Made by a program: the position numbers and the translations under genes. Positions 13,481 through 24,551 of a DNA stretch of 42,238 bases are shown here, one piece after another; the stretch's first letter is position 1, and each line of letters starts with the position of its first letter. The stretch lies in contig JAQVLT010000007.1 in assembly GCA_028704015.1 (NCBI GenBank), positions 13,632 to 55,869 of the forward strand. The letters run 5' to 3'. Origin of the DNA: Patescibacteria group bacterium. GTDB taxonomy: Bacteria > Patescibacteriota > Patescibacteriia > Patescibacteriales > JAQVLT01. The notes beneath the pieces were generated by a model that was not told the origin of the DNA, made no database searches, and was given only the letters and a program-made list of their open reading frames with translations.

Positions 13481-13522
13481 AGCCGACCACAGGAATTGTC
13501 CCGGTACGCTTCGCGACCGGGA
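13480..13522 (-). pseudogene. tRNA 3'-end remnant A, broken off in the T-loop by a GC-rich hairpin
   Basis: Read on the minus strand, the end of this stretch is CAATTCCTGTGGTCGGCTC: half a T-loop, the 3' strand of a T-stem (CCTGT), a 7-nt acceptor strand (GGTCGGC) and a T discriminator. This matches the layout of the intact tRNA-Thr at 13633-13705. Upstream (minus sense), the T-loop stops at a hairpin TCCCGGT/ACCGGGA (13499-13505 with 13516-13522). The D-arm, anticodon arm and 5' acceptor strand are absent. Which tRNA it came from cannot be told. Confidence 0.55.
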
Positions 13523-13561: not shown

Positions 13562-13625
13562 GAGCCTCCTGTCAGAATCCGCCTACTCCGCCGGCGGGCG
13601 GATACGGCGGACAAGTCGAACTGAC
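13562..13625 (-). pseudogene. tRNA 3'-end remnant B with a 38-bp GC-rich insert in its T-loop
   Basis: On the minus strand, GTCAG TTCG (13625-13617) and ATT CTGAC (13578-13571) make a perfect T-arm with the loop TTCGATT once the intervening 38 bp (13579-13616) is removed. An acceptor strand AGGAGGC and a T discriminator follow. The insert is built of CCGCC/GGCGG inverted repeats. Nothing resembling an anticodon arm is present before the neighbouring tRNA-Thr. So this is a fragment, not a gene, and its loop has been expanded by a palindromic element. Confidence 0.6.
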
Positions 13626-13807: not shown

Positions 13808-13878
13808 AGCGGGATGCGAGAATCGAACTCGTGTTTCCTGCTTGGGAAGCAGATGTACTACCATTGTACTAATCCCGC
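13808..13878 (-). tRNA. tRNA-Gly (anticodon CCC)
   Basis: 71 nt on the minus strand: acceptor GCGGGAT/ATCCCGC with a T discriminator (usual for bacterial Gly), a D-arm around TTAGTACAATGGTAGTA, anticodon arm TCTGC-TTCCCAA-GCAGG giving anticodon CCC (Gly, GGG codon), and T-arm with loop TTCGATT. CCA is not encoded. It is the first tRNA behind the minus-strand promoter at 13956-13984. Confidence 0.96.
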
Positions 13879-13907
13879 CTACGCTTCGCTTCGGCGGGCA
13901 AGCCCGC
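13875..13907. repeat. GC-rich hairpin element abutting the tRNA-Gly 5' end
   Basis: CCCGCC/GGCGGG and GCGGGC-AA-GCCCGC (13894-13907) form alternative hairpins. The first CCCGC overlaps the tRNA-Gly acceptor end. The element lies in the leader between the predicted minus-strand promoter and tRNA-Gly. It belongs to the same GC-rich palindrome style as the inserts at 13579-13616 and 17527-17642. Confidence 0.7.
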
Positions 13908-13948
13908 TTTTTGCAAAGCGATTTTTACTTTTCCGCAAAATCATTTTA

Positions 13949-17503: not shown

Positions 17504-17660
17504 AAAATTATTATTCCAGGGTCGTCCCTGGCTACGCCCAAGGCGCAGCCGCGGGCAGGCTAACGGTAGGCTTGCCCGCCTTTGGCGGGACTCCAGATTT
17601 TCCTGCCTGCCCTGCCTACCGGACAGGCAGGCGGCAGGCAGGGGTCCTGGCTATCGGGGT
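17504..17660 (+). pseudogene. tRNA-Gln pseudogene with GC-rich hairpin inserts in the D-arm and anticodon loop, truncated in the T-loop
   Basis: Segments line up in order with the intact tRNA-Gln at 17914-17984: AAAATTATTATTCC plus nine bases ending TCGTC (17504-17526), TAACGGTAGG (17561-17570), ACTCCAGATTTT (17590-17601), GGTCCTGGCTATCGGGGT (17643-17660). Between them are extra pieces 17527-17560 and 17571-17589, which are imperfectly complementary and so flank the D-loop as an extended stem. A 41-bp self-complementary piece lies near 17602-17642, inside the anticodon loop. The T-loop is cut after GGGGT and the rest of the tRNA is missing. The homology includes 14 bases upstream of the tRNA, so the flank was duplicated too. 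Confidence 0.75.
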
Positions 17661-17664
17661 AAGT

Positions 17665-17928
17665 ATGCATTATGTTTATATATTAATAAGTAAAGCAAGA
17701 AGTAATTGGTCGTATGTGGGCAGTACATCAAATTTAGAACAACGTTTTTGTGATCATAAGTATGGGAAAGTTAAATCAACTAAAGGTTGTCGTCCATTGT
17801 TGTTGATTTACTCAGAAGAGTTGTTAACCAGAGAGGACGCTTATGCGAGAGAATTATTTTTAAAATCGGGTATAGGCAGAGAAGAGAAAGCAGTTATTAT
17901 TAAAAATTATTATTCCGGGATCGTCTAA
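17665..17928 (+). CDS. GIY-YIG nuclease domain protein ending inside tRNA-Gln
   Basis: 87 residues from ATG 17665. The frame is open further upstream to 17572, but that part only translates GC-rich palindrome and pseudo-tRNA sequence. The single GIY-YIG domain is recognisable by MHYVYIL (GIY-like strand), WSYVGSTSNLEQRFCDHKYG (YIG-like strand plus catalytic-type Arg) and a small C-terminal helix region (REDAYARELFLKSGIGREEK). Size fits the stand-alone UPF0213/YhbQ-like group of structure-specific or homing-type nucleases. The last codons (KNYYSGIV-stop) are supplied by the tRNA-Gln 5' flank and its first 15 bases; the stop TAA is in the D-loop. The gene lies between the damaged and the intact tRNA-Gln copies. 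Its substrate is unknown. Confidence 0.85.
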   Translation: MHYVYILISKARSNWSYVGSTSNLEQRFCDHKYGKVKSTKGCRPLLLIYSEELLTREDAYARELFLKSGIGREEKAVIIKNYYSGIV

Positions 17929-17984
17929 CGGTAGGACTCCAGGTTTTGGTCCTGGCTATCGGGGTTCGAATCCCTGTCCCGGAG
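17914..17984 (+). tRNA. tRNA-Gln (anticodon TTG)
   Basis: 71 nt: acceptor TCCGGGA/TCCCGGA with a G discriminator (typical Gln), D-arm GTC-TAACGGTAG-GAC, anticodon arm CCAGG-TTTTGGT-CCTGG giving TTG (Gln, CAA codon), T-loop TTCGAAT. CCA is not encoded. Its first 15 bases also encode the end of the GIY-YIG protein, and it is followed by a terminator. Confidence 0.96.
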
Positions 17985-17994
17985 CTAAGATAAG

Positions 17995-23882: not shown

Positions 23883-24551
23883 ATGAAAATATTAAAACGC
23901 AAAAAAATCAAAGATTTAAATTATTTTTACGCTTGCTTGCCCGGTAGGCAGGTTTTTAAATTTTTAAATTTTTATAATAAAAATGGTCAATCTCTCCTTG
24001 AAATAATTCTCGCAGTAGCTATTTTCGGCTTGGTGGCTGCTACGATTACGACTATGGTTCTTGGTGGTGACGCGAGCTTGAGTCAGGGAGGGAAACAAAC
24101 TGAGGCTTTGGCATACGCGCAAGAAGGGATTGAAGCGGTACGATCAATCCGCGACCGCGCCTGGAACGAAAACAAATATGCCACCAGCTCAGTCGCGACT
24201 TCCAGCGGTGAATGGATTTATAACGGCGAAGGTACCACTCAAACGATTGGAGAATTTGCCAGAACTATCGCTTTTAGTGATGTTTGCCGCGATATTTCCG
24301 ATAATATTACCGTTTGCCCCGGGGAATATATTGATCCACATACGAAAAAAGTAACCGTCAGAGTGAGCTGGGTTACCAGCGCCGGAGCGACTAATAATGT
24401 AGAAAAAATAGCTTATTTGTCCAATTGGCACAAAAAAGTTTGGCCGGAAGATATATTAGCTGATTTTAGCGATGGAACATTTACCAATACTATCGCAACA
24501 ACTACATACGGCACGGGTAACGGCGCGGTAGTTTTGCAAGAACAGAACTAG
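23883..24551 (+). CDS. prepilin-like protein, PilV/GspI type, with a palindromic repeat in its leader
   Basis: 222 residues. The class III cleavage site is NKNG|QSLLE (Gly35, Glu at mature +5), followed by a hydrophobic helix (IILAVAIFGLVAATITTMVLGG) and ALAYAQEGIEAVRSIRDRAW, typical of PilV-like minor pilins. The leader before the cleavage site is 35 residues, unusually long. Bases 23931-23952, a GC-rich palindromic element of the dispersed family, are translated within it as ACLPGRQV. The insertion kept the frame. A later start is hard to find, as no ATG precedes the cleavage site after the repeat. It sits 21 bp after the FimT-like gene. Confidence 0.85.
   Translation: MKILKRKKIKDLNYFYACLPGRQVFKFLNFYNKNGQSLLEIILAVAIFGLVAATITTMVLGGDASLSQGGKQTEALAYAQEGIEAVRSIRDRAWNENKYATSSVATSSGEWIYNGEGTTQTIGEFARTIAFSDVCRDISDNITVCPGEYIDPHTKKVTVRVSWVTSAGATNNVEKIAYLSNWHKKVWPEDILADFSDGTFTNTIATTTYGTGNGAVVLQEQN
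23931..23952. repeat. GC-rich palindromic element inside the PilV-like coding sequence
   Basis: The core GCCCGGTAGGCAGG corresponds, in reverse complement, to the variant CCTGCCTACCGGACAGGC within the tRNA-Gln pseudogene insert (near 17614). It lies in a coding leader flanked by AT-rich sequence. Confidence 0.75.

Follow-up and report, generated by a model that had tools for sequence, protein, structure and literature searches.

Why should a truncated copy of a tRNA gene, interrupted by GC-rich hairpins, lie beside an intact copy of the same tRNA with a small nuclease gene between the two? The question is raised by a locus in the window, as we call the whole 42,238-nucleotide stretch of a Patescibacteria group bacterium contig (JAQVLT010000007.1) that was analysed. 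The answer that we tentatively favour, and regard as a serious possibility though short of probable, is that mobile insertions which regenerate their target enter tRNA genes by way of the arm tips and leave hairpin-bearing fragments behind.

Organisation of the tRNA-Gln locus

The following features make up the locus, all on the forward strand.

17504..17526 with 17903-17925, + strand: direct repeat (91%), the first 11 nt of which lie upstream of tRNA nt 1
17515..17660, + strand: 5' remnant of tRNA-Gln (nt 1 to about 52) with three GC-rich inserts inside, delimited by repeats and alignment
17527..17559, + strand: insert 1, 33 nt, in the D arm between nt 12 and 13
17570..17588, + strand: insert 2, 19 nt, on the 3' side of the D loop; its placement slides by 2-3 nt
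17602..17642, + strand: insert 3, 41 nt, inside the anticodon, after position 35 and before 36
17665..17928, + strand: GIY-YIG nuclease ORF, 87 aa, between the remnant and the intact tRNA-Gln
17914..17985, + strand: intact tRNA-Gln, anticodon TTG

Nucleotide 1 of the remnant is at 17515 and the copy ends at 17660 within the T loop; it lacks the 3' half of that loop and, in both the acceptor and the T arm, the 3' strand. The original prediction, that GC-rich segments interrupt a tRNA-Gln pseudogene, was borne out by repeats and alignment at all three positions listed above. Its further suggestion, that the RNA could still fold as a cloverleaf with elongated arms, is impossible for a copy that stops inside the T loop, and a functional tRNA with long arms is likewise ruled out, since the 3' strands are lacking and no complete cloverleaf is present. 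Folding had been proposed as a check and gave a mixed answer: the remnant folds better than its shuffles (z -3.91 as RNA, z -3.62 as DNA), but neither the acceptor nor the T arm appears in the predicted structure. In an Rfam search the remnant gave no tRNA match at the gathering score, nor up to an E-value of 5. A group I or II intron is ruled out, since the tRNA-Gln is uninterrupted and no intron family reaches the gathering score in the window.

What is left of the tRNA resembles the intact gene closely. The pieces separated by the inserts match it at 9/9, 13/14 and 18/18 nt, and a further piece reads TCCAGGGTCGTC against TCCGGGATCGTC; point changes are present. Insert 1 has 31 of its 33 letters in common with the insert at the same place of a tRNA-Gln (CTG) remnant in the same genome (L019). 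Its tail pairs with the head of insert 2 around the D loop, as had been proposed, but insert 2 contains a hairpin of its own, CCCGCCTTTGGCGGG. Insert 3, rightly expected to be palindromic, consists of a palindrome that sits in the middle of a second, outer one, the 20-mer CCTGCCTGCCGGCAGGCAGG.

The nuclease and its loci in related genomes

The original account took in neither the 87-aa ORF nor the wider system of tRNA remnants. The ORF, whose stop codon falls within the intact tRNA-Gln, in its D loop, matches the GIY-YIG domain (PF01541, E 3.3e-13). Residues of catalytic type, which we take to be catalytic indeed, are invariant across 26 sequences. The nearest sequences in the PDB are UPF0213 and SLX1, the match to I-TevI being weak. 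Because these nearest solved relatives include the structure-specific SLX1, action of the nuclease on folded DNA is plausible. A search for phage carriers of the nuclease gave no match.

GIY-YIG matches were found in 118 of 192 genomes, the window's genome included. From about 165 listed loci we sampled 113 (33 plus 80 of the next-ranked), and a tblastn hit was obtained in 110. A tRNA on the same strand lies within about 200 nt at 73 of these 110 loci and none at 37; a tRNA on the opposite strand only was seen at 0. Nine of the 22 named loci, which come almost entirely from other phyla, are near a tRNA. Sixty partial copies are clearly tRNA remnants (score at least 25; reversed tRNAs score no more than 21), and the order remnant, ORF, intact tRNA recurs at many loci. 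The internal inserts of these 60 remnants (n=40) have a median length of 30 and a mean GC content of 0.72.

Both the target and the place of insertion follow the nuclease. The target tRNA is clustered on the nuclease tree, with 38 changes against 66.2 when shuffled (0/200 as low), and this holds across genome families; the arm that carries the ORF-proximal insert needs 8 changes against 17.4 (0/200 as low; 38 rows). To judge from sequence, the system resembles a GIY-YIG homing endonuclease gene in its catalytic domain and in its target-specific lineages across genome families. It differs in that the host's target is not left interrupted, and so immune, by the insertion: an intact tRNA remains beside the ORF.

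Remnants elsewhere in the window's genome

The window's genome (1,081,650 bases in 27 contigs) has four GIY-YIG matches, each of which abuts a tRNA that is accompanied by its own partial copy. When all tRNAs were scanned, 17 of the 43 distinct tRNAs had a neighbouring remnant (score at least 26; best null score 23), some of them weak, namely L190, L214 downstream and L250. A GC hairpin occurs in 15 of the 19 remnant zones, although in one of these zones (L194, tRNA-His) it is the tRNA's own arm. The hairpins take different positions: a 34-nt palindrome lies within the D loop of a tRNA-Val remnant (L017), and at L194, L215 and L018 a hairpin stands in place of the anticodon arm.

About 13 of the 17 remnant-bearing tRNAs have a gap of 13-116 nt instead of a GIY-YIG ORF. 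Since most remnants in this genome are without an ORF, a locus does not require a nuclease gene of its own; the nuclease may work in trans, or its gene may have been lost. Remnants also occur at 6 of 44 tRNAs in a relative without GIY-YIG (G007), and at 3 of 33 tRNAs in Gelidibacter sediminis, one with the nuclease.

Three further arrangements were noted. At L018 (250-380), tandem tRNA-Asp-like fragments with the anticodon arm replaced by a hairpin lie directly upstream of an intact tRNA-Asp. At L177 and L170 (genome G156), 3' remnants come after intact tRNA-Asn, tRNA-Lys and tRNA-Ala genes; their T loops carry double hairpins, and there is no ORF. In the window itself, GC-rich hairpin-like stretches (13497-13522, 13573-13618 and 13873-13908) flank a tRNA-Thr/tRNA-Gly pair, one of them touching the 5' end of tRNA-Gly.

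Boundaries and identity of the copies

In most of 53 5' remnants similarity begins no earlier than tRNA nt 1, and in most 3' remnants it stops at the last tRNA base. The upstream flank is clearly common to both copies in only a few of the 53 (L034, L038, L045 and L084), on which ground tandem duplication together with the flanks was rejected. The window locus, which lies outside those 53, shares 11 nt upstream, and a few other loci share a longer stretch; the rule that copies start at nt 1 therefore has exceptions. Copying from mature tRNA was also rejected, because a CCA signature is mostly missing from the 3' remnants and from the intact tRNAs beside them, and because remnants of both kinds exist.

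Remnant and intact tRNA are perfectly identical in 28 of 60 cases. In nearly every isotype represented by at least two loci, identity within a locus exceeds that of the same tRNA between genomes, tRNA-Phe being mixed, and this disfavours a foreign donor tRNA brought in by the element.

Hairpins in the remnants and at dispersed sites

Perfect GC hairpins are concentrated in the remnants, at 10.42 per kb in 52 remnant zones compared with 0.98 upstream, 2.37 downstream and 0.15 in the ORF. They occur in 38 of the 52 zones, and several of the other 14 have imperfect ones. Two or more perfect hairpins are found in 7 of the 40 internal inserts, one in 26 and none in 7.

The inserts are of at least two kinds. 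The outer 20-mer palindrome of insert 3 is dispersed in the window's genome (18 exact copies, against 0 for the reversed control) and is present in 59 of 192 genomes (reversed control, 0). The second kind consists of hairpins with the loop TCATNCGA, of which genome G156 has 43 ten-letter cores against 1 for the reversed control; T-loop inserts are often one such hairpin plus one of the mirror type, with the reverse complement loop, and their stems differ by paired changes.

Identical 20-mer inserts are found in remnants of different tRNAs from several genomes, and identical copies are dispersed elsewhere. This disfavours the original prediction's alternative, the growth of hairpins at existing loops. 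Such growth de novo by template switching could account for nested palindromes (insert 3 of the window; L004) and for inserts at tips, but we consider it very improbable in view of these identical copies.

The same data bear on neutral decay, in which a partial tandem duplicate of a tRNA ceased to function and gathered dispersed palindromes by chance, with no targeting of loops. The palindromes are indeed dispersed genome repeats and the window remnant has point changes, as decay would have it. Nevertheless, hairpin density is tenfold over the flanks, and many remnants are 100% identical to the intact tRNA yet already carry inserts. Taken with the insert positions described below, this makes neutral decay unlikely in our judgement.

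Outside tRNAs the 20-mer shows no general preference for tips. At 24 places the mean flanking stem is 1.58, against 1.97 in controls; at 17 places in the window's genome it is 3.59 against 2.58, an excess due to few places (nested palindromes in L001 and L004; L007 and L015). The broader form of the original prediction, a general targeting of loops by palindromic elements, finds no support in the window's genome, where, nested palindromes apart, dispersed copies are not at inverted-repeat tips beyond chance. One palindrome of the dispersed type lies in frame within a protein gene of the window (23883-24551), adding the residues ACLPGRQ.

These observations also weigh on REP-type transposition, in which a Y1 (HUH) transposase would move palindromes via single strands with a preference for hairpin loops. 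The window's genome has five Y1_Tnp matches, and at one of them (L151) a palindrome of the same family lies alongside. However, no such palindrome is present at the other four loci, the REP-type tags GTAG and CGTC occur in 0 and 1 of the 40 inserts, respectively, and the dispersed copies are not at tips. We therefore hold this reading to be quite improbable. From what is available of the literature on REP, REPIN and BIME sequences, the likeness lies in palindromes of 20-40 bp present in many copies; the palindromes described here differ in having no GTAG/CGTC tag and no consistent Y1 transposase neighbour.

The 20-mer is associated with the nuclease, being present in 50 of 118 genomes with a GIY-YIG match and in 9 of 74 without, a comparison that ignores kinship. 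Two genomes, G145 and G078, have 11 and 13 exact copies and no GIY-YIG match at E 1e-6.

Position of the inserts within tRNA arms

Of the 40 internal inserts, 30 on strict placement, and up to 35 if any placement is accepted, fall in a loop or at its boundary rather than in a stem, against 26.6 expected. This effect is weak (P 0.16 for the strict count, P 0.02 for the sum of fractional scores). When the 40 are pooled with 29 inserts that begin where the alignment stops, hairpin loops hold 48 of the 69 points against 27.2 expected. The central quarter of the arm, a measure picked after the points had been seen and applied to loci that share ancestry and are not independent, contains 14 of 18 points in the anticodon arm (binomial 4e-6) and 12 of 13 in the T arm (binomial 6e-7), whereas D-arm points are not central (9 of 31). 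Roughly eight nuclease lineages supply the central inserts, as read from the tree rather than computed. Insertion at loop tips, as first proposed, therefore stands for the anticodon and T arms but not for the D arm. For neutral decay, the weakness of the 40-insert test and the scatter in the D arm speak in its favour; the apex position in the other two arms, and the fact that the arm is lineage-specific, speak against it.

The median distance of the ORF-proximal insert from the remnant end is 8.5 nt, against 17.4 under uniform placement, and 32 of 38 remnants end no more than 5 nt from the end of the arm bearing this insert, although the short blocks accepted in detection partly favour small values. 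Such proximity would also suit a reading in which the element has the hairpin as an integral or a selected end, which prevents the leftover copy from being cut again or from recombining, or stops the leftover RNA from competing in the folding of the true tRNA. Consistent with this, the arm that carries the hairpin lies next to the ORF, and insert architecture is kept among members of one nuclease lineage even where their stems differ by paired changes, as in the T-loop type with TCATNCGA. On the other hand, the same hairpins are dispersed without tRNA or nuclease, and some remnants have no insert (L032). We accordingly think it doubtful that the hairpins are integral or selected ends.

A possible mechanism and its relation to known systems

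According to the explanation that we favour, a GIY-YIG element would enter the tRNA-Gln gene and an intact tRNA would be restored downstream, so that the pseudo-tRNA would be the displaced 5' part and the GC-rich hairpins would mark the entry region at the arm tips. We infer that the nuclease cuts tRNA DNA at these tips, perhaps those of an extruded cloverleaf. Hairpins would then become joined at the cut tips, and the tRNA would be restored by repair from a sister copy.

In favour of this explanation stand the recurring order of remnant, ORF and intact tRNA, the same-strand tRNAs at 73 of 110 nuclease loci with none on the opposite strand only, the concentration of hairpins in remnants, their place at the tips of the anticodon and T arms, the dependence of both arm and target tRNA on the nuclease lineage, the short distance from the ORF-proximal insert to the remnant end, the high identity of the two copies within a locus, the invariant residues of catalytic type, and the related ORFs in 16S rRNA and RNase P RNA described below. 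Several observations count against it. The presumed cut site is kept in the intact tRNA, unlike a classical homing site. Remnants exist without a GIY-YIG ORF (about 13 of 17 tRNAs in the window's genome and 6 of 44 in G007), and the D-arm inserts are not central. Finally, nine genomes have the 20-mer and no GIY-YIG match, among them the two with 11 and 13 copies.

Integrative elements can restore the tRNA gene that they enter, leaving a partial tRNA copy. The present system is similar in that the tRNA gene is regenerated and a partial copy is left, but here the fragments end at any of three arms and lie on either side. The hairpins recall, in the accessible parts of the literature, the hairpin-forming elements (RHE) of sponge mitochondria, which are short, GC-rich, single or double, and dispersed in AT-rich genomes; the same likeness extends to the double-hairpin elements (DHE) of Allomyces mitochondria, known here from the title of a paper. 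As far as those sources go, our case differs from both in its bacterial genome, its strong link to tRNA remnants and a nuclease gene, the tip position and the lineage-specific arm. Among sources available mostly as titles or the opening lines of abstracts, with subscription papers outside the scope, we found no published account of hairpin-bearing tRNA remnants beside GIY-YIG genes. We regard the system as a variant of homing and palindromic elements that are already known, and possibly as more than that.

If the favoured explanation is true, as many as two fifths of a reduced genome's tRNA genes would carry scars of repeated invasion that left a working copy each time, and this would reveal a way for selfish DNA to persist in essential RNA genes present in a single copy. 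It would also give a testable role to a common, unexplained family of 85-residue nucleases, provide a natural test of structure-guided DNA insertion, and explain, for genomes of this kind, many of the tRNA pseudogenes and of the small ORFs that overlap tRNAs.

Other targets of the nuclease family

ORFs of the same family are not confined to tRNA genes. At L095 (759-1487) one lies in a hairpin tip of 16S rRNA and at L111 (158-703) one lies in a hairpin tip of RNase P RNA, each inside a long inverted repeat, with the 5' strand of the target RNA upstream of the ORF and the 3' strand downstream. We take the target helices to be h44 of 16S rRNA and P3 of RNase P RNA, respectively.

A broader proposal would be that this is a separate, new class of mobile DNA guided by nucleic-acid structure and not by sequence: minimal GIY-YIG nucleases would act at the tips and bases of folded RNA genes (tRNA arms, 16S h44 and RNase P P3), the hairpins would be non-autonomous passengers, and essential tRNAs would be rebuilt from host sequence, usually from or to the mature tRNA ends. 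We regard this as conceivable, though on balance unlikely. In the part of one report that was available (PMC11270868), rRNA genes of CPR bacteria are described as holding GIY-YIG insertions that match no intron, and insertions at the top or base of stem-loops are described as well. The present case shares with these a small GIY-YIG ORF in a conserved RNA gene; it differs, as far as that part goes, in that tRNA genes are the target, an intact copy is regenerated and a leftover fragment carries hairpins. The words tRNA, hairpin and palindrome each occur 0 times in the text of PMC11270868.

Protein genes can also be involved. At L138, L044, L100, L132, L144, L107 and L039, GIY-YIG ORFs lie between inverted repeats (e.g. 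CCCCGTTAGAA / TTCTAACGGGG) at the start codons of protein genes; a copy of the ATG is found on either side, and each looks like a minimal transposon-like unit. At L118, a copy of a gene's first 34 nt (ILVTGGAGF) and half a palindrome are followed by a GIY-YIG ORF and then by the gene start again, an arrangement that resembles the one found at tRNAs.
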